A model generated the notes under the pieces. It did not search any database. It saw only the letters and a list, made by a program, of their open reading frames with translations, and was not told the DNA's origin. Positions 3,110-62,174 of a DNA stretch of 64,000 nt are shown one piece after another; position 1 is the stretch's first letter, and every line of letters begins with the position of its first letter. The DNA is from Blautia sp. An249 (GTDB lineage Bacteria > Bacillota > Clostridia > Lachnospirales > Lachnospiraceae), in NCBI RefSeq assembly GCF_002159835.1, contig NZ_NFJL01000010.1, positions 62,001 through 126,000 of the forward strand. The letters run 5' to 3'. The position numbers and the translations under genes are program-made.

Positions 3110-3525
3110 TGAAACTGATCAAGATTACTACGGAAAACCAGATTTCAGTACATGATTTCCCGGAGGGAAGTTTTATGGAGCGGAATCAGGCGCTGAGAGA
3201 TCACATTGGTCCGAAGTGCGAACTTTATGAGCATGTTATGCCGAAGCGTCTGTATAAAGAGCTTCATGGATCCAGTAAAAGAGGAAACTGCGTAAGTATG
3301 CTGGTAGACGAAGACGGACATTATCATGATCTGCCTGAAAATCTTGTTGCATCATGGCTTTATGAGTCAGACAAGCATGGGTACCCAATTCTGGGGAATG
3401 TCCTGATTGTAGGAGAGAAATGGGAAGGTTCAGGCATCAGCTTTTGCGGGATTCCGGGGGATCAGTTCGACCTGCTCTTCCCGCAGCTTAGAAAATTAAC
3501 AGAGGAAGCGAGGAAAAATAGATGA
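3109..3525 (+). CDS. DUF3846-type phage protein (138 aa)
   Basis: I chose the ATG at 3109, overlapping the preceding stop, instead of a longer frame starting at 3076, because GAGAGGGG lies just upstream. The protein begins MKLIKITTENQISVHDFPEG and carries YEHVMPKRLYKEL, CVSMLVDEDG and HGYPILGNVLIVGE, which I recall as the conserved blocks of DUF3846, a small fold with an N-terminal strand-rich domain found in Firmicute mobile elements. Biochemical role unknown. It overlaps the nuclease gene by 4 bases, so both are probably made together. Confidence 0.65.
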   Translation: MKLIKITTENQISVHDFPEGSFMERNQALRDHIGPKCELYEHVMPKRLYKELHGSSKRGNCVSMLVDEDGHYHDLPENLVASWLYESDKHGYPILGNVLIVGEKWEGSGISFCGIPGDQFDLLFPQLRKLTEEARKNR

Positions 3526-44555: not shown

Positions 44556-45245
44556 ATGGATGTTAGTTTAACTGAAGTTGAAAACGGTAAGAGTAAATTT
44601 ATCTTTCCGAGCCTCCCTGAGGAGGTAAGCGGAAGAAATCGGACGAATTATCAGTCCTACGATATCCTGTCTTATGGAGAGGTGAAAATCCCCAAAGGAA
44701 TGAAGCTTACAGAGATTTCGTTCGAGGGGATTTTTTTCGGAGAGGCGAAAAAAAACGAGTCCATTGTGAAACAATGGATTAAGCCGGCAGAATGCGAAAA
44801 AATTCTGAAAAACTGGCAGGAAAAAGGGACCGTGCTACGGTTGATGGTTACTGAAACCAACATCAATATTGATGTTACTATCAGTGATTTTGAATGTACA
44901 GATTATGGCGGTTACGGAAACAAGAAGTATTCGCTGGAGTTTGTGCAGTACCGGTCCCTGAAGGTTTATACAACGGACGAACTCAAGATTGTAAAGTTCG
45001 TTAAGAAGACGGTGACAAGGCCTGCGGCCGCAGCTCCCAAAAACAAGGGCAGCTATACCGTGAAATCAGGCGACAATCTATGGTCGATCGCAAGGAAGTT
45101 CTATGGCGGCTCCGGATCCACTTGGACAAAAATATATAGTGCGAACAAGTCAACGATAGAATCCACTGCGAGAAGATACGGGAGATCAAGTAGCGATAAT
45201 GGACACTGGATTTACCCGGGGACCGTGTTGGTTATCCCGAATTAG
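44556..45245 (+). CDS. LysM-containing tail/baseplate protein, XkdP-like (229 aa)
   Basis: AGGGAGGCG precedes the ATG. An N-terminal baseplate domain (about 1-150, VENGKSKFIFPSLPEEVSGR) leads through an Ala/Pro linker to a LysM domain at about 166-229: YTVKSGDNLWSIARKFYGGS then WIYPGTVLVIPN. LysM binds peptidoglycan. Order after the tape measure matches XkdP, a protein that positions the baseplate hub. Confidence 0.8.
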   Translation: MDVSLTEVENGKSKFIFPSLPEEVSGRNRTNYQSYDILSYGEVKIPKGMKLTEISFEGIFFGEAKKNESIVKQWIKPAECEKILKNWQEKGTVLRLMVTETNINIDVTISDFECTDYGGYGNKKYSLEFVQYRSLKVYTTDELKIVKFVKKTVTRPAAAAPKNKGSYTVKSGDNLWSIARKFYGGSGSTWTKIYSANKSTIESTARRYGRSSSDNGHWIYPGTVLVIPN

Positions 45246-45260
45246 GAAGGGGGCGGTATA

Positions 45261-46505
45261 ATGATAGATCTATCTAAAGTGCAATACCGCTTCGTTATTA
45301 TGGACGAAAAGGGAAACCAATACAATATAAAAGATTATGTAGAAAATCTCGGGTGGGAGCAAGGTGAAGACGAACTCTCCACCCGAATTTCATTTACAAC
45401 AAAAAACGAAAAGTCATCAAAGGAAGTGTTTTCGGATATAGCGAAGCTTGGGTGCTTAGTCGGGATATTCGCTTCTGACGGAGTCACCGACGACGAAGTG
45501 GCAAGAGGAAACATTATAGACTGGAAGCCATCGTATTCTTCGGATTCATATAAGTTTGACGGCAAATGCTATGACAATTTATATAATCTGCAGGAAAGCC
45601 AGGACAATATATACTATCCCGCCGGTACCGGTACAAAATCTGCTGTAACGAAGATCTTTGATGATTGGGAGATTCCCCTTGGATCCTATGAAGGGCCGAA
45701 TGAGACGCACGCAAAGCTGACTTTCAAATCGCAGGACCTTGCAAACGTCATTACGGAAATTCTGGATGACGCTTATAAAAAGGGTGGCGTAAAATGCGTC
45801 GTGCAGGACAGGAAGGGCAAAGCGTATGTTGTCCCCTATGCGAACAACAAGACGGTCTATCATTTTGCGGCTGAAAACGTGGTCACGGCCACGCATAAGA
45901 GAAGCACTGCCGGGATGATCACCCGTGTAAAGGTGATTGGGCAGGAAGATGATGATGGGAAAAGCTCGGTCGAGGCTGTGTTAAATGGCAACACAAAATA
46001 TGGCGTTCGCCAGAAAATTGTTCGCAGAGGCACTGATGAGAGCCTTGAGGATGCGAAAACATCGGCGCAGACAATTCTCGATGAAGATGGAGAGATCCAG
46101 GAAGAAATGACTGTGAAAGCGCCGGACATCCCATGGGTGAGGAAAGGGGATCTGGTCCATGTAACGGTTGGAACCATGAATGCCTATTACTATGTTATCG
46201 GTATAAGGCATGATGTGGATAGCCGCAGCATGACATTAGATCTTCATGTTCCGTTCAAAGAATATGAAAAGAAAGCACAGCAGACGGTTCAGAAAAAAAC
46301 TTATAATGTGGGCGATATCGTGAATTTCCACGGAGGAACCCACTACGTCAGCTCTTATGCGGGATCCCGCGGATACAACGCAAGAGCTGGACGGGCAAAA
46401 ATAACGATCAAGAATGGATCAGGAAAAGCACATCCATGGCATCTGATACACGTTGACAGTTCAAGCAATGTGTATGGATGGGTGGATAACGGCACATTTG
46501 ATTAA
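45261..46505 (+). CDS. Baseplate hub protein, XkdQ-like, with extra C-terminal domain (414 aa)
   Basis: The XkdQ-type hub core covers about 1-330: YRFVIMDEKGNQYNIKDYVE, NIIDWKPSYSSDSYKFDGKC and VRKGDLVHVTVGTMNAYYYV. The last about 70 residues (KKTYNVGDIVNFHGGTHYVS, then HPWHLIHVDSSSNVYGWVDN) form a separate SH3-like unit suited to cell-wall contact. Hub and SH3 in one chain is a usual Clostridia variant. Confidence 0.75.
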   Translation: MIDLSKVQYRFVIMDEKGNQYNIKDYVENLGWEQGEDELSTRISFTTKNEKSSKEVFSDIAKLGCLVGIFASDGVTDDEVARGNIIDWKPSYSSDSYKFDGKCYDNLYNLQESQDNIYYPAGTGTKSAVTKIFDDWEIPLGSYEGPNETHAKLTFKSQDLANVITEILDDAYKKGGVKCVVQDRKGKAYVVPYANNKTVYHFAAENVVTATHKRSTAGMITRVKVIGQEDDDGKSSVEAVLNGNTKYGVRQKIVRRGTDESLEDAKTSAQTILDEDGEIQEEMTVKAPDIPWVRKGDLVHVTVGTMNAYYYVIGIRHDVDSRSMTLDLHVPFKEYEKKAQQTVQKKTYNVGDIVNFHGGTHYVSSYAGSRGYNARAGRAKITIKNGSGKAHPWHLIHVDSSSNVYGWVDNGTFD

Positions 46506-46517
46506 GGAGGGATGAAG

Positions 46518-46862
46518 ATGGCGTTTGATGCACATGCCGGAACGAACAAACTGGCAAGGACGCTTCACAAAAGGATAAAAAGCATGTCAGACAGCCCACT
46601 TGTTCTCGACTTTGGAAAGATAGAGTCTGACTACGGGCTGGTTACAAATACTTTTCCGGTAAAAATACCGCAAGGCGATTATACGGTGTGCCGGCATGTG
46701 ACAGGCATATCCCTCGGGACTTCCGGAGGTAGTCACGGCGGGCACGAATACGGCGATGGATCGCATTCGCATTCTATACCGGTTCCGGGGCTGTCTCCCG
46801 GGAACCACGTTCTTGTTGCGTGGGTGCAGAATGAAGCAGTGGTTATCGATGTGATCAGTTAG
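46518..46862 (+). CDS. Baseplate protein, XkdR/DUF2577-like (114 aa)
   Basis: I chose the ATG at 46518, 7 bases after AAGGAGG. Begins MAFDAHAGTNKLARTLHKRI and carries PLVLDFGKIESDYGLVTNTF then a Gly/His-rich segment (GGSHGGHEYGDGSHSHSIPV) and GNHVLVAWVQNEAVVIDVIS. This order and size match DUF2577. The His-rich loop may bind metal in the baseplate spike (inferred). Confidence 0.75.
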   Translation: MAFDAHAGTNKLARTLHKRIKSMSDSPLVLDFGKIESDYGLVTNTFPVKIPQGDYTVCRHVTGISLGTSGGSHGGHEYGDGSHSHSIPVPGLSPGNHVLVAWVQNEAVVIDVIS

Positions 46863-46873
46863 GGGGTGGGAAT

Positions 46874-47314
46874 ATGGATGAAGAGAACACGTTATTTCCT
46901 GTGGAAGAGTCCCCTGAATTTATCGATGACGGAGATCAGTTGGACAGGGATTACCACTATACAGTTGCGTGGGACGTTGAAAAACAGGACTTCGTCTTGA
47001 ATGGGAAGGGCCAAATGGAGCAGTGCGATGGCGTGGAAGGCTATAAAGTATGGTGTTGTAAAATGGCCCTCACACAGCGATATGCTTGTGCAGCTTATCA
47101 GGACGAAATTGGCACCGAACTGGACGAAGCTCTGGCAGAGGACAGTGAAAAGGCAGTTGAGTCCGCAATAGAAAGAACAATATCAGAGGCGTTACTGGTG
47201 AATCCGAGGACTGAATATGTAAGAAACTTTGAGTTTTCGTGGTATGGAGAAGCGGTAAGCGTCTCGTTTACTGTAAAGGGAGTAGACACGGATGAATTCA
47301 AAGTGTCTATTTGA
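46874..47314 (+). CDS. Baseplate protein, XkdS/DUF2634-like (146 aa)
   Basis: GGGGGTGGG precedes the ATG. Begins with an acidic region (MDEENTLFPVEESPEFIDDG), then TVAWDVEKQDFVLNGKGQME, YKVWCCKMALTQRYACAAYQ and VRNFEFSWYGEAVSVSFTVK, the layout of DUF2634/gp25-like wedge proteins. Its role is to connect the hub to the wedge. Confidence 0.75.
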   Translation: MDEENTLFPVEESPEFIDDGDQLDRDYHYTVAWDVEKQDFVLNGKGQMEQCDGVEGYKVWCCKMALTQRYACAAYQDEIGTELDEALAEDSEKAVESAIERTISEALLVNPRTEYVRNFEFSWYGEAVSVSFTVKGVDTDEFKVSI

Positions 47315-47332
47315 TGACTGGAGGTGAGAAGT

Positions 47333-48457
47333 GTGAGTTATGAATTTACTCCGCCGGAATTTGTCGATGGAGCTGAGCCGGAAGAAATACAGCAGCGCAT
47401 GATGGATGCGCTTCCGGATGGGATTGACGATATGCCCGGAGGATTCCCGTATGATTTTACGATGCCAACAGCAATAGAAAAATCAGAATTGATCCAGTTT
47501 CATCTCGTGCGCACCTTGATGTTAATGTATCCGCAATATGCATGGGATGAATGGCTTGATCTCCACGCAGCGGCGGCAGGCGTGGAGCGCCGGCCGGCGG
47601 GACATGCAAGCGGATCGGTGACGGTTTCCGGAGACGCAGGAACTGTCATACCAGAGGGGGCAATATTCTGTACAGAAGCAACAGACTCTTCTCCGGCTCT
47701 CGAATATGCCGCTGACTCAATGGCTGTTATACCAGAGTCCGGAAGCGTGGTCGTTGAGGTTACGGCTGTTGAGGCCGGAAAAGAGTCGAATACCAAAAAG
47801 AATACGGTAGTATTCTCTCTTACAAGCATAAAAGGGCTGTCAACAGTGAACAATCCGGCAGACATTACCGGCGGGACGGATGTGGAAGGCGACGAAGATC
47901 TTCGGGAGCGTATCGAAGAAGAGAATTTTAGAGATGGAGCAACATTTGTCGGAAACGATGCGGACTATATCCGATGGGCAAAAGAGGTAGTTGGCGTTGG
48001 CGACTGTATTGTCGTGCCAACATGGGATGGTCCGGGCACTGTAAAGCTGATAATCGTAGACTCAAATGGTGAGCCGGCAAATGAACGGCTGACAAAGGCG
48101 GTTTATGATCACATTGTGTCTCCGGACGATAGGTCACGAAGGCTTCTTCCTACCGCATGTGCAAAGCTGACCGTCGTAGCTGCGGCCACAAAGAAAATTT
48201 CTTATGTTTGTACGGGACTTGTATATGACGATACTACCGATATACCGACAATCGTGAGTCAGTTCAAAGAACTTGTAATGCAGGAATATTCGGAAGCGAA
48301 AGCAGAAGGCGTCCTTGTTTACAATCAGGTCCGTCCTCTTATCACGGATATACCGGGAGTATCCGATTTCGACACATTTTTAATGAATGGGGCAGAGGAA
48401 AACATCCTGCTTTCTAATGATGAATATGCGGCAACAGATCAGGTTGATTTTAGTTAA
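47333..48457 (+). CDS. Baseplate J-like wedge protein, XkdT-like (374 aa)
   Basis: GTG at 47333 is the best start; a GTG at 47324 lies inside its own ribosome binding site (GGAGGTGAG). Blocks MYPQYAWDEWLDLHAAAAGV, GSVTVSGDAGTVIPEGAIFC, TGGTDVEGDEDLRERIEEEN and DADYIRWAKEVVGVGDCIVV are those of baseplate J proteins. It drives sheath contraction on host contact. Confidence 0.85.
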   Translation: MSYEFTPPEFVDGAEPEEIQQRMMDALPDGIDDMPGGFPYDFTMPTAIEKSELIQFHLVRTLMLMYPQYAWDEWLDLHAAAAGVERRPAGHASGSVTVSGDAGTVIPEGAIFCTEATDSSPALEYAADSMAVIPESGSVVVEVTAVEAGKESNTKKNTVVFSLTSIKGLSTVNNPADITGGTDVEGDEDLRERIEEENFRDGATFVGNDADYIRWAKEVVGVGDCIVVPTWDGPGTVKLIIVDSNGEPANERLTKAVYDHIVSPDDRSRRLLPTACAKLTVVAAATKKISYVCTGLVYDDTTDIPTIVSQFKELVMQEYSEAKAEGVLVYNQVRPLITDIPGVSDFDTFLMNGAEENILLSNDEYAATDQVDFS

Positions 48458-48471
48458 GGGGAGGGAATGCG

Positions 48472-49689
48472 ATGAATATTGAAAACTTTCCCACATCTGA
48501 AGCGGCAAAAAGAATGATGGGATACATTACCGGCAATGGATTTTATGACAGATCCTATGTTGGGAAGTGGATATTCCAGGTTATGGGAGTGGAGATGGAC
48601 GAGGCCCGCCGGATCATTGAGGATGAACTGCCGTATCAGGCGTTTCCGGAAACAGCAACATGGGGGCTCCGATATCATGAAGAGAAGTTCGGGCTCCCGA
48701 TCAGGGAGAACCTTAGCCCGGAAGAGCGACGAAAGCTTATCTTAGACAGAAGAGACACAAAAGCACCTATAACCCCATGGCGATTGGAAAAGATGGTAAA
48801 CAGTATCCTCGGATGCGATGTAAAGGTTGTGGATATCCATGAACCTGACAACAAGATATCTCACCCAAACACTTTTATTGTTTACCTCGAAGGCGAAGGG
48901 GAATTTAGTCTGCAAAAAGGCATTGACAAGATCAACGACGCAAAGCAATCGCATACGTCGTATGAGCTGCATGTTCGCCTTGCAGTCTTTGTTCTGGTCG
49001 AGAACATCCTGTTTAATCGCATGACGGTACGAATGCCAATCACATGGTGGGGTGCTACGTGGGATGGAGAATATCCTTTTGATGGTAGCATTTATTTCAA
49101 TGCTCGGCAACCTCCATATTTCTATATGGCAGTTCCGTTTAGCATCCCGAATATTATCAAAATTGAAAATCTTCGGGTATCGCACCGGGTTACAAAAATA
49201 AGCGAATACGGCGATCTTTTGATAAAAATAGTTCATCGGATCCCAATCACATGGTGGGGAGCATCTTTTGACGGAAGATACCTTTTTGATGGAGAGGCGC
49301 TTCTAAATGCAGCGAGACCTCCGGAATTCGGGAGGGTCGCATACAATTTTGATTCTTTCAATGCAGAAGAGGTGTTATTCGGGCATGCGGAGCTTGCTGC
49401 CGCTGAAATAAAAAATGAGAACACATGCAATGTTAGGGATGTCCACAGGGCATCCTTTTTGTGGCCCGACTATGTAATTACTTTTGATGGAGAACTATCG
49501 TTTGATGGGGAAGAGACATTTTCGCAGGAGTCTCCACCGAAGGTAACATCAATCACGCATCGCATAAATGCTGAGATCGACGAAGATTTTGGCATTGCGA
49601 TATATATACCGTCAAAAGCGATTCTCTTTAACGGAGCGTGCGCTTTTGATGGAGCAAATGATTTCAATTCAGGAAGGGAGGACCTGTAA
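48472..49689 (+). CDS. XkdU/DUF2313-like baseplate protein with repeated WWG/FDG C-terminal domain (405 aa)
   Basis: The N-terminal about 185 residues match DUF2313 (NFPTSEAAKRMMGYITGNGF, YQAFPETATWGLRYHEEKFG, TPWRLEKMVNSILGCDVKVV). The C-terminal 220 residues hold two WWGA-x2-DG-x3-FDG repeats (about 188 and 259) and two shorter FDG/FNG repeats (about 339 and 385), separated by YxVPFSI-like strands. XkdU proteins normally end near 200 residues, so the extra domain may be a host-contact module (inference). Confidence 0.75.
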   Translation: MNIENFPTSEAAKRMMGYITGNGFYDRSYVGKWIFQVMGVEMDEARRIIEDELPYQAFPETATWGLRYHEEKFGLPIRENLSPEERRKLILDRRDTKAPITPWRLEKMVNSILGCDVKVVDIHEPDNKISHPNTFIVYLEGEGEFSLQKGIDKINDAKQSHTSYELHVRLAVFVLVENILFNRMTVRMPITWWGATWDGEYPFDGSIYFNARQPPYFYMAVPFSIPNIIKIENLRVSHRVTKISEYGDLLIKIVHRIPITWWGASFDGRYLFDGEALLNAARPPEFGRVAYNFDSFNAEEVLFGHAELAAAEIKNENTCNVRDVHRASFLWPDYVITFDGELSFDGEETFSQESPPKVTSITHRINAEIDEDFGIAIYIPSKAILFNGACAFDGANDFNSGREDL

Positions 49690-50069
49690 TGGCAGGAACG
49701 ACAGTTACAACAAAGGCAAAGAAAAAAATGTTAGAGGCGAGAGCTGGCATAGCACCGCTCAGCAAGATCGTAGGCATGGCATTTGGTACCGGCGGGGTGA
49801 ATGGATCCGATGAGATTGTTCCGCATTCCCCGGATCAGAACGCATTGCACAATGAAGCGTTCAGGAAAGAAGTGGATGGGTATGAAGTGATCTCTGATAC
49901 CTGTATCCGGTATAAATGCACCCTGGAGGAAACAGAGCTGGCAAACACATACATTTCCGAAATTGGCATTTACGATGCTGATGGAGATATGGTGGCCATG
50001 AAAGCGTTCATGAAAAAAGGCAAGGATGCAGACATGGAAGTTGTGTTTGAGTGCGATGATACTTTCTAA
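49689..50069 (+). CDS. Tail fibre base protein (126 aa)
   Basis: ATG overlaps the previous stop (TAATGG), with GGGAGG upstream. It begins MAGTTVTTKAKKKMLEARAG and contains KIVGMAFGTGGVNGSDEIVP and NTYISEIGIYDADGDMVAMK, the layout of the N-terminal attachment module of phage tail fibres. It likely links the baseplate to the DGR-variable tip protein downstream. Confidence 0.65.
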   Translation: MAGTTVTTKAKKKMLEARAGIAPLSKIVGMAFGTGGVNGSDEIVPHSPDQNALHNEAFRKEVDGYEVISDTCIRYKCTLEETELANTYISEIGIYDADGDMVAMKAFMKKGKDADMEVVFECDDTF

Positions 50070-50137
50070 CGCATTTCGATATTTTGCAACATGTTAAACA
50101 CTTTTTTGAGATAAATATTATCATATGGAGGTAGATT

Positions 50138-51826
50138 ATGGCGAATTTTGATATATCTGGCGCCAGATTCAATGAGCAGCTTCGCATGCTCGAAACAACG
50201 GATCCGGTACATGCGGATCTCATGAATGCCATGTTCGGGCAGCTCATTAAGAATGACGTGGCTATGCGTGATGCGGTAAGTGTTTTTGCCAAATCAAAAA
50301 ATGAACAGGCGTTGTTCCTGCTCAATCTTAGGAGGACCGGCAAGCGGTATGGTGTGCATTTCGATGCATATGGCGTAAGCCCTGCATCAACAGGAACGAG
50401 GCTTTATGACGCTGTTGGGAAAGTGGCCACTCCGTCTACAGATTCGGTGCGTGGAATAAATGATTTTGAAGGAGAAAGCGTATTCTATGGACTGGAAGTA
50501 AATGGATACGTGGACACGGATGGCGAATTCGTCGTGGAGTACATCAAGGGAATTGACAATGAATTCTCCCGGGAAGACGAAGATAAGGATGTTTATATTC
50601 TTTTCCTTACGCAGTGGATTGAGATGGAAGTGACTGCGAACGGAGAGAATATTATTCTTTCAGATGAAAATCATCCCGGATCCTTCCCGGAAGCGGCAGC
50701 TATCCGGCCGGACGGAACAGTAAGACCCTTCGTTCCTATTGCGAAGTATCTGGCATGGGATGATGAGTCCGGCATACCGCATTCTGTAAGCGGAAAAACA
50801 GTAAATCACAATCAGAGTCACAACAACATGATCACTCGCTTCCGGAAGAAGGGGAACCAGTATTGCGGAACCACTGCACAGGACAAAGCACATTTGGATA
50901 ACCTGTTTCTTGTGGCTTTTGCAACAAGAAATACCCAGTCTATCATGTATGGATGTACAAGCTATTCCGCACAGTACGCAGCTACGGTGCAGGAGTCTGG
51001 AGTGGAGCGGATTATCGTATCAAAGACGCAGGCAGCGTATTTTATCGTTGGATCCGTTGTTTCTATTGGAAATCCTACGATTCTTTCAGATGAAGGAACG
51101 CCAATCTTAGATAGAGGGTATTCCGGCATGCACGCAAAAGCGGATCGTGTTCTGATCACAGCGATCGAGGAATACGATGAGTCGAACAGCGCAATCTATG
51201 TTGATAACGGAGGAACCACATTCTCAACAGCATCATCTATGATCAACGATAGCGTTGAGGCGAAGACGTACATTTCAACCATGCCATGGAGAACGGGAAC
51301 GTGCGACGCCGTTCTTGGCTCATGCGGATCACCTGTCAGCAACACAAACGGTAAATATCCGTATATCCTGTTCGGCGTTGAAATGTTCCTTGGATTTTAT
51401 GAAGTTATCAGCAACGTGATCATGAAGATTACAGATCACGTGATGACTCCGCAGATCTGCTATGACTGTACGAAACTGGCTACGTCTGTCACGGAGGATT
51501 ACGAGGCGGTCGGGTACGCCGTTGCTAATACGGAGGATTCATGGAAGTATATCAGCAAACTCGGATACGACCCGGAAAATCCGTGCGTCCGACATGGCGT
51601 GGAAGTAAATGCGTCAAGTTCGACAGGATATGCGGACGGGCAGTACACCAATGATCTTGACGAAACTTCCGATGCAACGAGAGAGTGGCTTTCCGGCGGC
51701 GCCCTGTACAACGGGGCTTTCGCGGGCCGGTTCTACGCGTTCCTGGCCGACGCCCTCTCCATCGCGTACTGGTACTACGCCGCCCGCCTTTCTGCTTCTG
51801 GACGGTGCGCCCAGAGCGCAGCGTAG
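50138..51826 (+). CDS. DGR target tail-tip protein with C-type-lectin-like variable end (562 aa)
   Basis: GGAGGT precedes the ATG. The N-terminal region (residues 1-60) is helical and polymerisation-like; the middle is beta-rich. The C-terminal portion (about 370-562) has the Gly/Trp/Tyr-rich pattern of formylglycine-type C-type-lectin folds, ending WLSGGALYNGAFAGRFYAF and beyond. Variable residues are 522, 524, 525, 528, 535, 537, 538, 542, 544 and 546, set by the variable repeat at 51687-51786. The protein is the likely host-receptor binder, and its variability changes host range. Confidence 0.85.
   Translation: MANFDISGARFNEQLRMLETTDPVHADLMNAMFGQLIKNDVAMRDAVSVFAKSKNEQALFLLNLRRTGKRYGVHFDAYGVSPASTGTRLYDAVGKVATPSTDSVRGINDFEGESVFYGLEVNGYVDTDGEFVVEYIKGIDNEFSREDEDKDVYILFLTQWIEMEVTANGENIILSDENHPGSFPEAAAIRPDGTVRPFVPIAKYLAWDDESGIPHSVSGKTVNHNQSHNNMITRFRKKGNQYCGTTAQDKAHLDNLFLVAFATRNTQSIMYGCTSYSAQYAATVQESGVERIIVSKTQAAYFIVGSVVSIGNPTILSDEGTPILDRGYSGMHAKADRVLITAIEEYDESNSAIYVDNGGTTFSTASSMINDSVEAKTYISTMPWRTGTCDAVLGSCGSPVSNTNGKYPYILFGVEMFLGFYEVISNVIMKITDHVMTPQICYDCTKLATSVTEDYEAVGYAVANTEDSWKYISKLGYDPENPCVRHGVEVNASSSTGYADGQYTNDLDETSDATREWLSGGALYNGAFAGRFYAFLADALSIAYWYYAARLSASGRCAQSAA
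51687..51786 (+). repeat. Variable repeat (VR) of the diversity-generating retroelement
   Basis: 100 bases, aligned without gaps to the template repeat at 51914-52013 (offset 227). Thirteen positions differ, and at every one the template has A. No mismatch occurs at G, C or T. The 3' end CGCCGCCCG is invariant and is the likely initiation of mutagenic homing; similarity ends immediately after it. Confidence 0.95.
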
Positions 51827-51856
51827 GCGTGCCGTTGGGGGTGAATTGCGAAGCAA

Positions 51857-51872
51857 GAGGGGATCTCCCCTC
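51857..51872 (+). other. Small GC hairpin downstream of the VR
   Basis: GAGGGG-ATCT-CCCCTC, a 6-base-pair stem with a 4-base loop, 70 bases after the VR and 31 bases after the target stop. Known DGRs often have a short stem with a tetraloop just downstream of the VR that aids homing. A terminator role is unlikely because no T-run follows. Confidence 0.45.
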
Positions 51873-51913
51873 ATAACTACATATAGAATAAGGACTCACA
51901 CTGCTATTGGCTA

Positions 51914-52013
51914 GGCTTTCCGGCGGCAACCTGAACAACGGGGCTAACGCGGGCCGGTTCTACGCGAACCTGAACAACGCCCTCTCCAACGCGAACTGGA
52001 ACTACGCCGCCCG
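51914..52013 (+). repeat. Template repeat (TR) of the diversity-generating retroelement
   Basis: Non-coding template containing ten AAC codons in the frame equivalent to the target; nine of those ten are altered in the VR. Each AAC allows 15 amino acids and no stop codon. The two TAC adenines are unchanged. It lies between target gene and reverse transcriptase, on the same strand, and is transcribed into template RNA. Confidence 0.95.
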
Positions 52014-52220
52014 TATTTCTGATATGGTGTTTTGCAGTGTGTTTCGCCGCCCATTGAGGTGGCTCGATTTTCGACTTGGGCGGAATGCCCGAAATTTCTT
52101 GCACCAGCATCGGGCGCCGGGTAAAACCGGCGTCCGGCCATGCGACGGAAGTGGGCGCATGTGGGGGTTAGTAGTAAAACCGAAAGCCTTTGAATACAGA
52201 AAGAAAGAGGACTGGATTTT
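52014..52220 (+). ncRNA. DGR template RNA 3' spacer between TR and RT gene
   Basis: 207 bases with no plausible gene. It contains a stable hairpin GGCGCCGG / CCGGCGTC with loop GTAAAA (52113-52134) and GC-rich inverted pieces such as GGGC-GGAAT-GCCC nearby. In studied DGRs the spacer downstream of the TR is part of the RNA that primes cDNA synthesis, so structure here is expected. Confidence 0.5.
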
Positions 52221-53576
52221 TTGAAAACTTATTGTAAGAGAAAAGACATATCGAATATCGATTTTGTCAAGAACTGCATAACACCTTTCCTGTATGAGCG
52301 TTTGGACAAAAGCAATGTTGCTAAACTCTTTGCTTATTACAATGGAATCAGCAATACAAAATCAAGGAAGAATATTGATTCATCTCCGGAATACACAACT
52401 GATACTATTGAAAAAATAGCCGGCAGTATCTCTGAAAACTTAAAAAGCAGAACCGTTGTTGAGCATGTAATCGCTGTGACGCCAAATGAGGCTATTGTTA
52501 CTTATAGAGAAATTGTGGACGGGATCAGTGGTAAACGTCGAGAACTCGGGCTCGAAAAGCTCATATTTCAGCTTTATGAGGTGATCGCAAGGGATGCCTG
52601 TCAGGAAATGTTCGATGCAAAAATAGGAGAATTCCAAGTTTCTTCAATAAAAGGAAAGGGGCAATCTTACGGGAAAAAGTATATAAAAAAATGGATTTCG
52701 ATGGATCCGGAAGGCACAAAGTTTTGTGCGAAAGCGGATGTCAGAAAATGCTATCCAAGCATACCGCACAACCGGCTGAAGGAGCTTCTGCATAGGGATC
52801 TCCGGAAATCAGGAGATTTATTGTATCTGCTTGACTCAATCATATATTTATATGATTGTGCGAACCTGCAGCTTGGTCGGCCGGAGCTTTGTGGCAAAGG
52901 AATACTGATCGGATCCCCTCTGTCAAAAGATCTGAACAACTATTACATGTCGTACTTGTATCATTACATTTACGAGCAGCTTGCCATAACAACTGTGCGC
53001 CGTGGAAAAGAGAAGCGGACTCGTCTTGTATCACATGCGATGATTTATGCGGACGATATTGTTGTATTTGGCGGGAATAAAAAACATCTGCACCAGGCAA
53101 TGAAGCTTATTATTGATTTTACAAGAAAGTTCCTCGGTCTTGAAATTAAAAAGACATGGGAAAAATTCCTTGTGAGTTATAATGATTCCTCAGGAAAGTC
53201 CAAAGGCAGAAATCTTGACTTTATGGGATTTGTTTTCCGTGGCTGCGAAGCGTTTTATCGTGATTATGGAAAGGTGAAAAAACGGCTGAAAAAGGTCATT
53301 GTTACTGTGAGAGACTCTATCTTTCTTAGGGCAAGACGGAAATTTTACCTTTTCATAAAGCTTATCCGCTCAAAAACCGTGGTGACAAAGCACAAGGCAA
53401 TGTCACTGCTTGCGTATAATGGATGGATAAAGAACAGCGACTCGCATAAGTTTCAGTCCAAAGAGCATTGGAAAGAAATCATAAATATTGCAAAACGAAT
53501 GGTCAGCAGATATGAGAAAGGGCAACCTTATGAAACCGAAAAATATTATAAGAAAGTGAGGAAGATGTATGCATAA
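52221..53576 (+). CDS. DGR reverse transcriptase (451 aa)
   Basis: The TTG at 52221 is the only good start near the preceding AGAGGAC; no internal Met is close. RT motifs: KADVRKCYPSIPHNRLKELL (motif A-like, about 173-192), the IGSPLSKDLNNYYMSYLYHY block near 233 (position of the DGR-typical SQ motif, here SPLSK), catalytic YADD at 276-279, and RRGKEKRTRLVSH before it. The extended N-terminus and thumb-like C-terminus fit non-LTR-type DGR RTs. It copies the template RNA with A-directed errors. An Avd-type accessory gene is not seen beside it. Confidence 0.9.
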   Translation: MKTYCKRKDISNIDFVKNCITPFLYERLDKSNVAKLFAYYNGISNTKSRKNIDSSPEYTTDTIEKIAGSISENLKSRTVVEHVIAVTPNEAIVTYREIVDGISGKRRELGLEKLIFQLYEVIARDACQEMFDAKIGEFQVSSIKGKGQSYGKKYIKKWISMDPEGTKFCAKADVRKCYPSIPHNRLKELLHRDLRKSGDLLYLLDSIIYLYDCANLQLGRPELCGKGILIGSPLSKDLNNYYMSYLYHYIYEQLAITTVRRGKEKRTRLVSHAMIYADDIVVFGGNKKHLHQAMKLIIDFTRKFLGLEIKKTWEKFLVSYNDSSGKSKGRNLDFMGFVFRGCEAFYRDYGKVKKRLKKVIVTVRDSIFLRARRKFYLFIKLIRSKTVVTKHKAMSLLAYNGWIKNSDSHKFQSKEHWKEIINIAKRMVSRYEKGQPYETEKYYKKVRKMYA

Positions 53577-54246
53577 AACAAACAGTCCTGCAACGCAGGG
53601 GAAAATCACATATGTAACTCTGCCGGATGGATCCGTGGATGTCTGGATCCGAAGAAATGAACAGGAGCTGCCGGAAACAGAAGAGGGACCGGCAGGGGTT
53701 GAGGCGGATGAAATCTATTTCAAGCTGTCATCTGCAGATGTGGCATCCAAGGAGGAAATAGAAGCGGACATTGACTTCTGGTTTGATAAACTTGAAACCA
53801 GCGAGGAAGGCGGGATTGCAGATGCGTATTCAAAAGAGAATTACCGCACAGCTACCAGAGCGTTATTATCCGCAACGTGTGAACAGATTATTACATCCGG
53901 AGTGGATGTCGAACTTAGCATTGGAACCGAACATTTCAGCCTTACGGAAAAAGATCAGATCAACCTTTTCGGGAAACAGGCACAGCTGGCGGCAGGGGAA
54001 GAAAAACTGGAATACCACCAGGACGGGCAGCCCTGCAAGTATTACAGTGCGGCCGATATGCAGAAAATCATTGATGCTGCGTTTTCCTATGTATCCTACA
54101 ATACCACATACTGCAACAGTGCGTTTACATGGCTGGAGGCTTGCAATAAAGCATCGGAAATGGACGCTGTGCAGTACGGCGCCGAAATACCAGAAGAATA
54201 TTGTTCCGAGGTGTACAAGGACTACAAGGAAATGATGGTGAAATAA
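53569..54246 (+). CDS. Tail-fibre-associated protein, DUF4376-like (225 aa)
   Basis: Start overlaps the RT stop by 8 bases. The second half includes EDLWEKDQINLFGKQAQLAA-like sequence (actual: TEKDQINLFGKQAQLAAGEE), then CKYYSAADMQKIIDAAFSYV, resembling the helical DUF4376 domain found at tail fibre ends. It is not an Avd-like four-helix protein of about 120 residues. It may be a fibre chaperone. Confidence 0.55.
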   Translation: MHKTNSPATQGKITYVTLPDGSVDVWIRRNEQELPETEEGPAGVEADEIYFKLSSADVASKEEIEADIDFWFDKLETSEEGGIADAYSKENYRTATRALLSATCEQIITSGVDVELSIGTEHFSLTEKDQINLFGKQAQLAAGEEKLEYHQDGQPCKYYSAADMQKIIDAAFSYVSYNTTYCNSAFTWLEACNKASEMDAVQYGAEIPEEYCSEVYKDYKEMMVK

Positions 54247-54247
54247 G

Positions 54248-54718
54248 ATGAAGACGGTTTTAAAGATATTTTTTAAATACCTCTTCCTTTTTCTTGTTGG
54301 TGGTGCTATCTATGTGATCATTGAGCTTGTCTGCCGAGGCAGAAGTCATTGGACCATGGCCGTTGTCGGAGGCATATGCTTTGTCCTTTGTGGCATTCTT
54401 AATGAGATTTTCACATGGAAGTCCACGATATGGTTCCAGATGCTGATCTGCAGCTTGATTATTACGGCGGTAGAATTTATAAGCGGGCTGATCCTGAATA
54501 TCCATTACGGACTTGCCATATGGGATTACAGCAATATTCCATTTAACATTCTGGGGCAGATCTGCCTGCCGTTTACGGTGCTTTGGTTTTTTATATCGGC
54601 GCCGGCTATTGTTCTGGATGATTATTTGCGGTATTGGTTCTTTGGAGAAGAAAAACCACATTATATAATCAAAATTGGAGGGAAACCAAATGCAGATCAC
54701 AGATCAAGGATTTCTTGA
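54248..54718 (+). CDS. Multi-span membrane protein (156 aa)
   Basis: Four hydrophobic segments (about 10-28, 33-50, 62-85 and 96-120), the second followed by NEIFTWKSTIWFQMLICSLI. It resembles ABC-transporter type IV-like (PF06541-type) membrane proteins common in Clostridia. Starts 2 bases after the previous stop; overlaps the following gene by 29 bases. Envelope modification or superinfection role possible. Confidence 0.55.
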   Translation: MKTVLKIFFKYLFLFLVGGAIYVIIELVCRGRSHWTMAVVGGICFVLCGILNEIFTWKSTIWFQMLICSLIITAVEFISGLILNIHYGLAIWDYSNIPFNILGQICLPFTVLWFFISAPAIVLDDYLRYWFFGEEKPHYIIKIGGKPNADHRSRIS

Positions 54719-54926
54719 GGTTCTTGATACATATATGGATATGGTCGAGAAACAGGAAGAAATCATATACCGCTTATCGAAGATTGTGAAAAGGCAGGCG
54801 TATGAAATTGCCCACATGAAAAATGTATGTGGGTTTTCAGAAGAAAAGGCACAAGGGGAAATCGAGGAGGACCGGCTTGCACAAGAAGCCTTGTCAAAAT
54901 ATGAAGAACTGAAAAATATGGATTAA
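54690..54926 (+). CDS. Small helical protein (78 aa)
   Basis: ATG at 54690 after GGAGGGA, inside the end of the membrane protein gene. Heptad-like pattern (FLEVLDTYMDMVEKQEEIIY, then LSKIVKRQAYEIAHMKNVCG) suggests a coiled coil. A terminator follows its stop by about 30 bases, so it ends the fibre-accessory transcription unit. Function unknown. Confidence 0.5.
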   Translation: MQITDQGFLEVLDTYMDMVEKQEEIIYRLSKIVKRQAYEIAHMKNVCGFSEEKAQGEIEEDRLAQEALSKYEELKNMD

Positions 54927-54954
54927 AGAGCCTCCGGCTCTCGTTATCCAGCGC

Positions 54955-54982
54955 AAAAGATCGGGAAACCGGTCTTTTTTTT
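54955..54982 (+). terminator. Rho-independent terminator ending the fibre/accessory unit
   Basis: AAAAGATCGG / CCGGTCTTTT (10 base pairs, one T-G) around a GAAA loop, followed by TTTT. A smaller hairpin AGAGCC-TCC-GGCTCT lies just upstream. It separates the DGR/fibre region from the lysis genes. Confidence 0.8.
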
Positions 54983-55002
54983 GTTGGAAAGAGGTGCGAA
55001 CT

Positions 55003-55059
55003 ATGAACCCAATAAGAGCAGAACCGAGCAAAATATCAACCGGAACATGCAAACCCTGA
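55003..55059 (+). CDS. Possible short leader peptide (18 aa)
   Basis: ATG behind AAAGAGGTG opens a short frame MNPIRAEPSKISTGTCKP ending TGA, just before the lysis genes. No family. It could be a leader or chance; support is only its ribosome binding site. Confidence 0.2.
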   Translation: MNPIRAEPSKISTGTCKP

Positions 55060-55073
55060 CAGGAGAAAGAGTG

Positions 55074-55586
55074 ATGATAGAACATTTTATACAGTCTTTC
55101 GGGGATATCACTGTTGGACAGGCAGTAATTGTCATTTCGGCAATTGTTTTTCTGGTGATGGTATACAAAAAAGTAACATCTTATATATCGAAAAAGGCAC
55201 TTGATGAAAAGGAAAAAAATGACCGGATCCAGGAGGTTATTGATCAGGCAAAGCAGTATCCGGTATGGCATCAGCAGAGCGTCGATATACAGGAAAAATT
55301 CAATACGATGTTCAGCAACCTGGATAAAAAGATTGACAAATTGCAATGCTCATCCGACCAAGGTATGGCTTATACATGGCGGTATAGGATCTTGCGGTTT
55401 AACGACGAGATCTTGCACGGCCAAAAGCACAGCAAAGAGCATTTTGATCAGATCCTCGAGGATGTCCAGAACTATGAGAATTATTGCATAGAAAACCCGA
55501 AATTCCCGAACAATAAGGCGGTTTTCGCCATTCGTAACATTAAGAACGTGTACCAAAAATGCACGGATGAAGGATCTTTTCTATAA
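55074..55586 (+). CDS. Lysis-region membrane protein with coiled coil (170 aa)
   Basis: I chose the ATG at 55074 (MIEHFIQSFGDITVGQAVIV) after AGGAGAAAG. A single N-terminal span (about 14-33, VGQAVIVISAIVFLVMVYKK) and a long charged coiled coil (KVTSYISKKALDEKEKNDRI then IQEVIDQAKQYPVWHQQSVD) follow. The shape resembles spanin-like or minor lysis proteins found before the holin in Clostridia phages. Confidence 0.55.
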   Translation: MIEHFIQSFGDITVGQAVIVISAIVFLVMVYKKVTSYISKKALDEKEKNDRIQEVIDQAKQYPVWHQQSVDIQEKFNTMFSNLDKKIDKLQCSSDQGMAYTWRYRILRFNDEILHGQKHSKEHFDQILEDVQNYENYCIENPKFPNNKAVFAIRNIKNVYQKCTDEGSFL

Positions 55587-55598
55587 GGAGGAATAAGT

Positions 55599-55964
55599 AT
55601 GAAGTTATTAGAAATTTTAAAACAGGTTCCAGTACCGGTATTGCTGATTGTGCTTGCGCTCCTTCTGATCGTAACAATCGTGATTGCGGTTCAGTACATC
55701 CGCCAGAAAGGGCTTGATGGGATCAGAGCTGACGTGTATCAGCTGATTCTCACGGCCGAGCATATGTACAATGAATCAGGCGCCGGGAAACAGAAATTTG
55801 AATGGGTGATCCAGCAGGCAAGAGGTCTTTTGCCGAAATGGTTGCAGGCGATCGTGACCACGGAATTATTAAGAAATACAATCCAGAAATGGTTTGTTGG
55901 AGTAAAAGACCTTCTTGACGATGGAAAAGTAAATGGATCCCAGGGAGAGGATCAGGATGAATAA
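55599..55964 (+). CDS. Putative holin (121 aa)
   Basis: GGAGGA 10 bases before the ATG. One strong N-terminal membrane span (PVPVLLIVLALLLIVTIVIA at about 11-30) and an amphipathic C-terminal part with YQLILTAEHMYNESGAGKQK, similar to LLH-type phage holins. It sits directly before the endolysin gene pair. Pore formation is inferred. Confidence 0.6.
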   Translation: MKLLEILKQVPVPVLLIVLALLLIVTIVIAVQYIRQKGLDGIRADVYQLILTAEHMYNESGAGKQKFEWVIQQARGLLPKWLQAIVTTELLRNTIQKWFVGVKDLLDDGKVNGSQGEDQDE

Positions 55965-56337
55965 AAGAAAGGGCCCGGCAGAACACCGGGCCCTTAAAAT
56001 TCCCCCTAAAAGCGCCCGCTTCAAAGTTCTTCTTGCGCTGTTTATAGCGCTGGTAGTTTTTGCTTCGGCATTCGTGATTTATGCAGGAACGAAAAGTTAT
56101 ACAGAAGAACAGGAGGAAAACGATTTTGAACCGGAGCCGTTGGAGATCAGCGAGACTGATCCGTGCGACTACGGGATGGTAAGCGTTTACGATGGAGACG
56201 TGCTCATATATCAGTACCTTGGAGAAATTTACATATACAACGATGGAACGAACGGGAAAACCATTGATGTAAGAATTGTATATCCAGATGATACATGGCC
56301 ATGCTCCTGTAATGAAGAAATGGATGGGAAAGAATGA
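55957..56337 (+). CDS. Single-span envelope protein of the lysis cassette (126 aa)
   Basis: ATG at 55957 with GGAGAGG upstream, overlapping the holin gene by 8 bases. Basic N-terminus (MNKRKGPAEHRALKIPPKSA), one membrane helix (VLLALFIALVVFASAFVIYA), then an acidic extracellular domain with two Cys near the end. Overlaps the endolysin start. It may help or delay lysis. Its first codons coincide with a strong hairpin. Confidence 0.5.
   Translation: MNKRKGPAEHRALKIPPKSARFKVLLALFIALVVFASAFVIYAGTKSYTEEQEENDFEPEPLEISETDPCDYGMVSVYDGDVLIYQYLGEIYIYNDGTNGKTIDVRIVYPDDTWPCSCNEEMDGKE
55969..55995. terminator. Very strong hairpin inside the start of the small envelope-protein gene
   Basis: Perfect 10-base-pair stem AAGGGCCCGG / CCGGGCCCTT with a 7-base loop CAGAACA. 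The T-run expected after a terminator is on the minus-strand side (CTTTCTTTTAT), so it may stop leftward transcription or regulate translation of this gene. Confidence 0.5.
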
Positions 56338-58112
56338 ACGAGAAAGAATTCATTGAAATGATAGGGCCTATGGCTATGTCAGATATGCAGCAAAGCGGAA
56401 TTCTCGCTTCCATTACAACGGCTCAGGCATGTCTTGAATCTGGATATGGAAGCACAGAGCTTGCTGTCAATGCAAATAATCTGTTCGGCATGAAATGCTC
56501 CCTGTCCGGGAATACATGGGATTCCGTATGGGATGGAGTGAGCAAATATACAAAACAGACTAAAGAGCAGGATAAGAACGGGAATGAGTACACTGTAACA
56601 GCGGATTTCCGGAAATATCCGGATATTCTCACAAGTATCAAAGATCATTCGTGCTATCTGAATGGTGCAATGAACGGAAGCAGAAAACGATACGAAGGGC
56701 TTTCCGGTGAAAAAGATTACCGGAAGGCGGCAGAACTGATCAAGGCCGGGGGATATGCCACAGACGTTGCGTATGTGGACAAACTTTGCAGCCTGATCGA
56801 AAGATGGAATTTAATTCAGTATGACAAGGAGGACACAGGTATGAGTAATAGTAGTTTGGTGAATTGCGTGGTGAAGAGTCCGAACCATAGTGGAGCAAGG
56901 ACGCATTCAATCGATAGAATTACGCCGCACTGTGTAGTTGGGCAGCTTTCGGCAGAAGGGATTGGATCGTGCTTTCCTGCAGGGAGAGGCGCATCCTGCA
57001 ATTATGGTATTGGAAAAGATGGAAGGGTTGTTCTGGTAGTGGATGAGTGCAACAGAAGCTGGTGTTCTTCCAGTAACCCAAATGACCAGAGAGCGGTGAC
57101 TATCGAGTGTGCCAGCGATATGTCGGAACCGTATGCCATGACAAATGCGGTGTATGAGAAGCTGATTGCACTGTGTGTTGATATCTGCCGGAGAAACGGA
57201 AAGACAAAGCTGATCTGGTTCGGAGACAAGAATAAGACACTGAATTATAGTCCGAAGTCAAATGAGATGGTGCTGACGGTACATAGGTGGTTCGCAAATA
57301 AGAGCTGCCCTGGAGATTGGCTGTATTCCAGACTTGGAGATGTGGCGAACCGTGTAACCGCACAGCTCAGTGGGAGTTCCGGAGGAGGAACAGCCAGTGG
57401 CGGAAACACAGGAGGCGGGAGTGCAGGAAATTACAAGACCGGACTCTACAAAGTCAATGTCGGGGATCTCAACATCCGAAAAGGACCAGGAACAAACTAC
57501 GGAACCAACGGAGTTATTACTGACAAGGGAACTTACACAATTACTGAAATTCAGAACGGTTCATGGGGTAAACTCAAATCTGGAGCTGGTTGGATTAACG
57601 TCAGCACGGCCTATTGCTCCTATGTGGGAGCCGCATCAGGGGGAACAAGTTCTTCTGGCGGCGGCTCTGCTTCTGGCACTGCTTATAAGACCGGAACGTA
57701 CAAGGTCAATGTGTCGGAACTCAATATTCGGAAAGGCCCTGGAACTAATTACGGCACGAATGGTTCCATCAAAGACAAAGGCGTGTACACGATCACGGAG
57801 ATTCAGAACGGTTCATGGGGCAAACTGAAGTCCGGAGCAGGATGGATCAATGTTGATAAGGCATACTGCACCTACAAAGGAGCGGCGGCATCCTCCGGTG
57901 GCGGTTCTTCCTCCACCGGAAGCTTCAAGGTACAGGTCAGCATTTCGGATCTTTATATCAGGAAAGGACCGGGAACGAACTACGAGAAGAACGGATTCTG
58001 TCCGAAAGGCGTTTACACCATCGTCGAGACAAAAAGTGCTGGAGGATATACATGGGGTCGCCTGAAGAGCGGCGCCGGATGGATTGCATTGGAATATGCA
58101 AAAAGAGTATAA
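56334..58112 (+). CDS. Bifunctional endolysin: glucosaminidase, amidase and three SH3 repeats (592 aa)
   Basis: Residues 1-155 are a FlgJ/glucosaminidase-type domain (GILASITTAQACLESGYGST, NNLFGMKCSLSGNTW, RKYPDILTSIKDHSCYL). A second catalytic domain of the Amidase_2 type follows, with zinc ligands H199 (ITPHCVVG), H317 and C325 (SCPGDWL). Three SH3-like repeats (about 370-590), each with NIRKGPGTNYG or YIRKGPGTNYE and a G/S-rich linker, bind the wall. The amidase part has its own internal start. The gene ends the lysis cassette. Confidence 0.9.
   Translation: MNEKEFIEMIGPMAMSDMQQSGILASITTAQACLESGYGSTELAVNANNLFGMKCSLSGNTWDSVWDGVSKYTKQTKEQDKNGNEYTVTADFRKYPDILTSIKDHSCYLNGAMNGSRKRYEGLSGEKDYRKAAELIKAGGYATDVAYVDKLCSLIERWNLIQYDKEDTGMSNSSLVNCVVKSPNHSGARTHSIDRITPHCVVGQLSAEGIGSCFPAGRGASCNYGIGKDGRVVLVVDECNRSWCSSSNPNDQRAVTIECASDMSEPYAMTNAVYEKLIALCVDICRRNGKTKLIWFGDKNKTLNYSPKSNEMVLTVHRWFANKSCPGDWLYSRLGDVANRVTAQLSGSSGGGTASGGNTGGGSAGNYKTGLYKVNVGDLNIRKGPGTNYGTNGVITDKGTYTITEIQNGSWGKLKSGAGWINVSTAYCSYVGAASGGTSSSGGGSASGTAYKTGTYKVNVSELNIRKGPGTNYGTNGSIKDKGVYTITEIQNGSWGKLKSGAGWINVDKAYCTYKGAAASSGGGSSSTGSFKVQVSISDLYIRKGPGTNYEKNGFCPKGVYTIVETKSAGGYTWGRLKSGAGWIALEYAKRV
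56826..56843 (+). promoter_or_regulatory. Internal ribosome binding site and start for an amidase-only lysin product
   Basis: AAGGAGG at 56826-56832 and ATG at 56841-56843 (8-base spacing) lie between the glucosaminidase and amidase domains, at residue 170, in frame. Translation here would give a 423-residue amidase-plus-SH3 protein starting MSNSSLVNCVVKSPNHSG, which looks like a native amidase N-terminus. Confidence 0.6.
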
Positions 58113-60676: not shown

Positions 60677-60886
60677 GCGTTTATAATGAGACAGAGATTA
60701 TTCGGAGTCTCTCCGTGCTCTAATCTGGCAGCCTGTTCCTGCCATGCGTGGAACATCGTGTCAGTGCGGATGTAGTCAGCAGTACCTGCGGGCAGAACAT
60801 CAGCTATGGAGGTGTCTGGAATCTGCTCCAACAGCTGGGGGAGAGGATCATTTTGCCAGGATGGGATAAAAAATTTAGAAAAAGTT

Positions 60887-62174
60887 ATGGTGGATTATTC
60901 TACTGACATGACAAAGATAGTAGAGATGGTACAGGGAGTGACAAAAAGTGTGGTTGACCTGGGTCTCTCCATGATCGCGAAGGAATGGGAAAACTATGAC
61001 AAACTGCTACGCACCAGAAAAGAATTGCGTTCCGGATGGTATATCGTGAGGCGGGATGAAAGCACCCTGCTGACCAGCCTTGGAAGTGTGACCTACCATA
61101 AAACCTTATTTCAGAATCAATCCACCGGTGAGTATGAATATCTCCTTAACCGTATCATGGGGATAGAAAAACATACCCGGATGACGGAAAACGCAGAAGC
61201 AAAGCTGCTGGAAGAGGCCGTGCAGACCAGCTACCGCAAAGGTGGAGAACAGGTATGCATTACGGAAGAGGCAGTGAGCAAAGAAACCGTCATGAATAAG
61301 ATCCATACGCTCCGTTTTCCAAAGACAGGATCGCCGTCCCCAAAGAAAGCCCTGAAATACCTTTACATTGACGCAGATGAAGACCATGTATCCCTGCAGT
61401 ATATTAATGAAAAGGGCGATATTAAAAAACCCCGGAGGCACACTATCATGCCGAAACTCATTTATGTGTATGAGGGGATCACCTGTGAAAATGGGCGCAA
61501 TGAGTTGCTCAACAAAAAGCATTTCGGTAGGGTGTATGAGGGTGGGAAAGCCATCGAGCAGCTATGGAAGGAAGTATCCGAATACATTGAGGCCTCCTAT
61601 GATACAGAAGAACTGAAAAAAATCTATATCAATGGGGATGGGTGTCATGATCAAGAGCGGCCAGAGAATCCTAAAATATGAGGTAGAAGAAATCTTTGAA
61701 AAGATACTTGCCGTAACGGAAGAGGAACCCAAAAGGAAGACGGTAGAAGCGGCAAAGGAGTATATATTGGGAAACTGGGCGGGGATCACGCAATGGGTGA
61801 GAGATAAAAATAAAGAAGTCAGGTGCAGCGCAGAAGGGCACATCAGCCATGTGTTTGCAGACCGGATGAGTTCCAGACCATTAGGGTGGAGCAGATAAAA
61901 TGTCGCGGCTCCGGATCTATGATAAAAGTATGCTGGAATTGGTACGTTTTCAAAGAGAGGAGATGCCGATGGCGGCGGGGTGTGAAGAAGTGATATACAG
62001 CAGCAGCTAGATGTTTTCAGCGGAAAGAAACAGGAGACATTGGGAAGAATGGCGGATATGCCAGTATACAGCATCCCTAACCGCAGATAAAGAAGATAAC
62101 GGCATTGAAGAATCACATCTGGGGATTGTAAAAATGTGGGAATCTGATATAGTAAAGACAGGAAACCAAATCTG
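60887..62174 (+). pseudogene. Degraded ISLre2-family transposase
   Basis: The first frame (60887-61681) matches ISLre2 transposases: SGWYIVRRDESTLLTSLGSV, KLLEEAVQTSYRKGGEQVCI and YLYIDADEDHVSLQYINEKG. It then shifts frame after KKIYINGDG. A second frame (to 61898) resumes after an apparent loss of about 100 codons: EEEPKRKTVEAAKEYILGNW, then VRCSAEGHISHVFADRMSSR. A third frame from about 61888 holds MSRLRIYDKSMLELVRFQRE. Two shifts and a deletion make it inactive. The terminal repeats were not found. Confidence 0.7.

Follow-up and report, generated by a model that had tools for sequence, protein, structure and literature searches.

A diversity-generating retroelement with a non-canonical reverse transcriptase and no Avd match in a contractile-tailed Blautia prophage

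We analysed a 64,000-nucleotide stretch of Blautia sp. An249 DNA (the window), which holds a contractile-tailed prophage with terminase, portal, major head protein, tail sheath and baseplate genes. Just downstream of its Phage_Mu_Gp48 (Mu gp48-like) and tail-collar-fibre genes lies a diversity-generating retroelement (DGR), whose features are collected in Table 1. The core of the variable repeat (VR) spans codons 517–550 of the 562-residue target frame, while the template repeat (TR) is placed between the target and reverse transcriptase (RT) genes, outside coding sequence, with the RT gene beginning 207 nt after the TR core. An earlier note, made from the sequence alone, had already read this locus as a DGR; our analysis supports that reading and adds what it overlooked, namely a non-canonical RT, the absence of Avd, a hairpin element and a structured spacer. 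A gene overlapping the end of the RT gene (53569–54246) directly follows the DGR and matches DUF4376 and, weakly, the tail-fibre family phrog_1348; in a relative described below (L105), the matching place is taken by a frame of 227 aa. Further downstream are an endolysin gene (56334–58112), whose product combines glucosaminidase and amidase with three SH3 stretches, and, downstream of the prophage genes, a UPF0236 frame of 291 aa (60806–61681), beyond which a radical SAM/SPASM/PqqD protein is encoded (62551–63981).

Table 1. Features of the retroelement, in window coordinates.
Feature	Position	Strand	Basis or detail
DGR target gene; phage tail protein, 562 aa, variable region C-terminal	50138–51826	+	phrog matches, gene neighbours
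VR core; repeat runs on to 51794	51687–51786	+	ungapped alignment, repeat finder
Putative IMH: GC-only run GCCGCCCGC (51779–51787) and CTTTCTG	51779–51794	+	51787 and 51788 differ in the TR copy
GC-rich hairpin up to the stop codon, ACGGTGCGC/GCGCAGCGT, one mismatch	51802–51824	+	hairpin search
Paired-stem element	51839–51872	+	GGGTGAA (51839–51845); stem 1 TTGC-GAA-GCAA (51846–51856); stem 2 GAGGGG-ATCT-CCCCTC (51857–51872)
TR core, intergenic; repeat runs on to 52021	51914–52013	+	ungapped alignment
Structured TR–RT spacer; putative part of the TR RNA for RT binding and priming	52014–52220	+	conservation, consensus fold
DGR RT gene, 451 aa, TTG start	52221–53576	+	RVT_1, phrog_1423, alignments, tree

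The target sequence matched phrog_17147, a family of unknown function (E = 1e-177), and more weakly phrog_5302, annotated 'tail protein' (E = 2e-17), and gave no sequence match in Pfam, NCBIfam or PDB. Since the AlphaFold2 model built from a 4-row alignment was unusable (pLDDT 28.9), a C-type-lectin fold of the variable domain is a tentative proposal from register and sequence pattern: all 10 AAC (Asn) codons of the window TR stand in the register of the AAC codons in the TR of BPP-1 (Mtd).

Exact ungapped alignment at an offset of 227 nt showed the proposed repeat pair to be real, with 13 mismatches over 100 core sites, every one at an A of the TR core, which contains 22 (A to T 8, A to G 3, A to C 2). 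The clustering at AAC codons was likewise borne out: 9 of the 10 are altered, at target residues 522, 524, 528, 535, 537, 538, 542, 544 and 546, with residue 525 unaltered as claimed, and the remaining two adenines lie in two TAC codons, both unaltered. An AAC codon in which only the adenines change reads NNC and so never becomes a stop, which is the usual DGR design. The repeat extends 8 nt past the core to a length of 108 nt and gains two further mismatches, at 51787 (VR C, TR T) and 51788 (VR C, TR A), bringing the total to 14 of 15 at TR A. The ends of VR and TR in a DGR are expected to differ in the IMH/IMH* zone, and the repeat end with 51787 and 51788 is the putative counterpart here, named IMH by analogy with BPP-1. 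In the window and in two relatives (L104 and L105, below), the VR ends in CGCCTTTCTG, and the TR copies differ there.

A repeat arising by chance or gene conversion, with no DGR involved, is an extremely unlikely source of this pair. Other repeats do occur in the surveyed loci, which is all that speaks for it, but the long ones lack the A bias: 7 of 41 mismatches at A in a direct repeat inside the endolysin gene (57431–57595 and 57683–57847), 5 of 16 in locus L087 and 4 of 10 in locus L102. The probability that all core mismatches fall on A by chance is 7e-11. A repeat finder blind to base identity ranked the VR/TR pair as the best repeat of window positions 45001–58000, where the endolysin repeat was the other one listed. 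An RT gene and hairpins adjoin the repeats, and the comparison of each VR with its own TR, given below, also contradicts such an origin.

RT relatives came from three kinds of source: phage records, of which 34 matched; genomes at one per species, drawn from the family (299 and 397), the genus (64) and the class (391); and contig scans. When the single protein was searched at E 1e-10, 9 of the 299 family genomes had a match, among them the source genome. No near-identical DNA relatives were found in viral contigs using a DNA pattern, and peptide patterns found no close relatives of the RT or target in viral or genome contigs. We then surveyed 47 locus entries, with flanks as the contigs allowed, using the ungapped base-blind repeat finder and calling a pair A-biased when it had at least 4 mismatches with at least 70% at A of the downstream copy; one locus lacking an RT (L090) and one on the same contig as L104 (L071) were left out before the count. 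An A-biased pair was present in 41 of the 47 entries, including the BPP-1 control (17 of 18), which, with the RT beside the repeats and the target/TR anatomy, bears out the DGR identity. The six entries without such a pair were L018, whose RT lies at the start of the record, four on contigs of 3.2 to 6 kb (L083, L085, L096 and L101) and L103, a group II-type RT. In L074 and L102, the A-biased pair ranked second, that of L102 being 49 nt with 4/4 mismatches at A. One locus, L077, holds three copies (3211–3325, 3460–3542 and 3631–3745): the first and third differ at 15 sites, all at A of the third, whereas the second departs from the first at 16 sites and has A at none of them, an arrangement that looks like two VRs and one TR.

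Two relatives were close enough for their repeats to be compared with those of the window: L104, from a metagenome-assembled Blautia sp. of sheep abomasum (JAFVGK010000194.1), and L105, from the uncultured Lachnospiraceae RUG13037 (CACZXG010000017.1). Their targets are 65% identical to that of the window (for L104, over the last 142 aa only) and their own pairs are A-only (14/14 and 17/17). In the three pairings among the window, L104 and L105, the TRs differ at 13, 16 and 8 of 99 sites, none involving A in either TR; the two VRs of a pairing both follow their own TR at 12/13, 15/16 and 8/8 of these positions. The two exceptions are one shared IMH base, 51787; inside the core there is none. 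VRs differ from each other at 17/22, 17/22 and 18/22 shared TR-A sites, compared with 0/64, 0/61 and 0/69 shared non-A sites, so that the A-linked variation across related prophages that the earlier note had looked for is present in both. Because neither random change nor a one-off event gives a pattern in which VR follows TR, these comparisons argue for repeated overwriting of the VR by the TR with adenine errors. They support retrohoming that continued while the lineages parted. In that sense the suggested 'activity in recent history' is supported, as activity after divergence.

The RT matched RVT_1 (E = 1.5e-10) and phrog_1423, Reverse transcriptase (E = 4.6e-49), and a PDB sequence search returned seven matches at E up to 1, the best at 8e-4. 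Its frame is open and D173, D278 and D279 are in place. Motif 5 reads YADD, fitting the YxDD active-site pattern, but motif 4 reads GILIGSPLSK, that is, GxxxSK instead of the DGR form (I/V/L)GxxxSQ, with K236 (codon 52926–52928) in place of Q. The combination of SK and YADD is shared with L104 and L105, even though identity between the window RT and theirs does not exceed 49% (L104 being the closer) and those two are 79% identical to each other.

We placed the window RT in a quick tree (SH-aLRT only, no bootstrap) from which the motif 4 and 5 columns, L071 and L015 were excluded and in which the group II-type RT of L103 served as outgroup. It nests among RTs with A-biased pairs. The three SK enzymes group together (SH-aLRT 100) inside a 14-row clade (SH-aLRT 100) on a long stem, comprising seven SQ rows and seven non-SQ rows (SK in three, SC in two, SS and DA). 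Beside the SK trio, the non-SQ members are L010 and L106 (SC, YMDN), L075 (SS, FADD) and L087 (DA, FMDD), the last two being long branches whose joint placement is unsure. Among the 24 of 46 rows listed, the 14 clade members have 40–47 residues between motifs 4 and 5, compared with 31 in eight of the ten others, 62 in L078 and 29 in L103, and a stretch near the RT end that otherwise counts 10 residues is 27 long in the SK trio only.

L010 (4130–5491) and L106 (6001–7371), on phage contigs from human faeces and IMG/VR, encode DGR RTs with GSYLSC in motif 4 and YMDN instead of YxDD; they are 66% identical (dN 0.265, dS 1.42, NG86) and in each 14/14 VR/TR mismatches fall at A. Judged by these repeats, both RTs apparently work without the second catalytic aspartate. 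L087 (G169), its near-duplicate L015 (MT836832) and L075 (G736) have GGYLDAW or GGFWSSW in motif 4 and FMDD or FADD in motif 5, with A-only pairs (14/14, 7/7 and 19/19, respectively). A literature search for DGR papers mentioning YMDN found none, although the rest of the literature may hold SK or YMDN cases.

SK and YADD could instead be marks of a decaying RT, in a DGR that was active until recently and is now dead, leaving the VR as its frozen last product. PMC3521204 describes DGRs with broken RTs that keep A-only repeats and allows that non-SQ motifs could be sequencing errors or recent inactivations, and PMC4244168 suspects errors or inactivation in the 5 of 62 RTs that are off SQ (AQ, AN or lost). 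Against decay here stand the open frame with its three aspartates and the retention of SK and YADD across the divergence given above, each SK DGR having an A-type pair (14/15 over the 108-nt repeat of the window, 14/14 and 17/17). The L104 and L105 RTs have diverged to a dN of 0.149 (NG86; dS not computable), and the dN of the SC/YMDN pair lies well below its dS. Error or recent death is disfavoured because SK is kept over three loci and SC with YMDN over two, and we judge it unlikely compared with a DGR whose unusual RT is the working enzyme.

Avd is common in DGRs, although some DGRs lack it. The bAvd profile (PF22296) found the Avd of BPP-1 as a positive control (E = 7e-36) and gave no match in the source genome of the window. 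Across the RT subclade, 0 of 7 genomes, the source genome included, were matched, whereas all 5 genomes chosen from more distant relatives were, three of these (G325, G320 and G104) having SQ in motif 4. The BPP-1 DGR, by contrast, requires Avd (PMC12875486).

A different, canonical DGR RT might also have diversified the VR in trans. The RT mRNA and the template RNA need not be the same molecule (PMC3521204), which makes trans action conceivable, and an earlier host or a co-infecting phage may have supplied such an enzyme. The source genome, however, has only one other RVT_1 match, L103 (G000:C12 399–1841), a group II-like RT with QGGNLSP (QGxxxSP) and YADD, for which no repeat pair was present in the 4500 bases read. 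A profile of the subclade matches the genome once at E 1e-10, and all seven non-SQ loci of the subclade have the RT adjoining its own TR. Diversification in trans is thus very unlikely, and we attribute the changes in the VR to the RT encoded beside the TR.

Hairpins are present downstream of the VR (z −1.8). The one reaching the stop codon has a perfect 9–10 bp form at the matching place in L105 and does not figure in the L104 list, which is capped at three hairpins. The paired-stem element was followed through the survey using the anchored pattern GGGTGAA-stem-GAGGGG-N4-CCCCTC, which 13 of 41 loci carry 3' of the VR. These are L015, L092 and 11 of the 14 clade members, L010, L106 and L073 being the clade members without it. 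Despite changed stem letters, 49 of 52 anchor-read base pairs are retained; of the three misses, one is in L013 and two are in L105, the pattern there having ended at an inner GAGGG. The sole background occurrence pairs 1 of 4. In L012, 647 nt separate VR and TR and the element accompanies the VR, which suggests a target-site role. PMC3240598 describes a single hairpin of 7–10 bp with a GRNA loop, 4–34 bp after the VR. The window loops depart from that consensus, and the paired stems appear to be a variation on the hairpin described there. In 51600–52300 the two Rfam matches at E up to 1 fell far short of their gathering scores.

The spacer between TR and RT shows 83% mean column identity across the window, L104 and L105. 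Its consensus fold, from these three sequences only, has 46 pairs, of which 8 are kept through two-sided changes and 8 are broken in one sequence, and its closing helix places the 3' end of the TR beside the sequence that precedes the RT gene; folded by itself, the window spacer is unexceptional (z −1.5).

We compared adenine specificity with and without SQ, pooling mismatches as sites rather than independent events and leaving out L015, the non-SQ near-duplicate of L087. TR adenines account for 106 of 107 mismatches in the seven non-SQ clade members, 104 of 109 in the seven SQ members, 320 of 334 in 24 SQ loci outside the clade and 30 of 32 in two SP loci outside it (L081 and L088). The share of TR adenines that is mutated is 59% in the non-SQ members and 57% in the 31 SQ loci, and the non-SQ and SQ loci show no difference in mismatches off A (p = 0.15) or in substitution spectra (p = 0.11). 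The rule for selecting pairs favours A, yet all seven non-SQ pairs are the top repeat of the base-blind finder. On these sequences, the SQ pair of motif 4 appears to have been given up in several lines of the subclade with adenine specificity retained. Two residues of the BPP-1 RT (Brt) that we take to affect adenine mutagenesis, R74 and I181 (numbered on the BPP-1 sequence), align with R107 and I230 of the window RT and are invariant in a seven-row alignment; a literature search for DGR papers naming them found none.

According to PMC3521204, motif 4 (I/V/L)GxxxSQ is kept in 90% of DGRs, 15 of 155 DGR RTs varying at its last two residues (SP, SH, NQ, PA, AQ and VQ) with A exchanges still present. 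We treat the motif as a signature rather than a strict requirement. The enzymes described here resemble the non-SQ RTs of that study and of PMC4244168 in combining departure from SQ with A exchanges, while SK and SC are unnamed in the available text of either. Adenine bias is nearly universal across six DGR clades (PMC8144416).

Taken together, the locus is very probably a DGR of a contractile-tailed prophage in which the RT acts without Avd and diversifies the VR of a tail gene from the TR. TR and downstream spacer would be transcribed, and the RT, without Avd, would bind the folded spacer and copy the TR into cDNA, misreading adenines. The cDNA would then replace the VR, presumably guided by the GC-rich VR end, acting as IMH, and by the hairpins after the VR. 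The resulting tail-tip proteins would differ at up to ten variable residues, which may change the receptor that the phage can bind.

The DGR of BPP-1 (mtd-avd-TR-brt, NC_005357) is similar in having a C-terminal VR in its target, a hairpin after the VR, a TR–RT spacer, A-biased differences and ten AAC codons in identical register. The window differs from it in lacking Avd, in having SK for SQ and YADD for YMDD, in the 45 instead of 31 residues between motifs 4 and 5, in a 17-aa insert near the RT end and, after the VR, in a stem at 8–30 nt and a stem pair at 45–78 nt with loops other than GAAA. L104 and L105 have the same insert, stem element and spacer. Butyrivibrio phage Arawn (L017) and Faecalibacterium phage FP_Epona (L020) share the target–VR–TR–RT order after tail genes, A-only pairs (9/9 and 13/13) and hairpins after the VR, but their RTs keep SQ and YMDD and fall outside the 14-row clade.

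As a DGR the locus is ordinary; what sets it apart is an RT from a conserved branch that, as read from these sequences, does without Avd and the SQ pair and has kept its adenine specificity. We lean towards the view that phage-borne DGR RTs include such a branch, with SK and its SC, SS and DA sisters and one line with YMDN (L010 and L106), whose adenine specificity, mutational load and spectrum are those of SQ enzymes. If so, adenine misreading cannot reside in the SQ pair, contrary to the proposal in PMC3521204 that SQ sets fidelity and is the seat of adenine-specific infidelity, and the function of Avd must fall to the RT, perhaps to its longer stretch between motifs 4 and 5, or to the spacer RNA. 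The SQ motif serves to recognise DGR RTs, and finders demanding it would miss such DGRs. The subclade offers a natural comparison in which this motif changes across several related enzymes while the outcome stays constant, narrowing the seat of adenine specificity. A DGR that needs no Avd and has only a short, conserved spacer would also be simpler to reconstitute than that of BPP-1.
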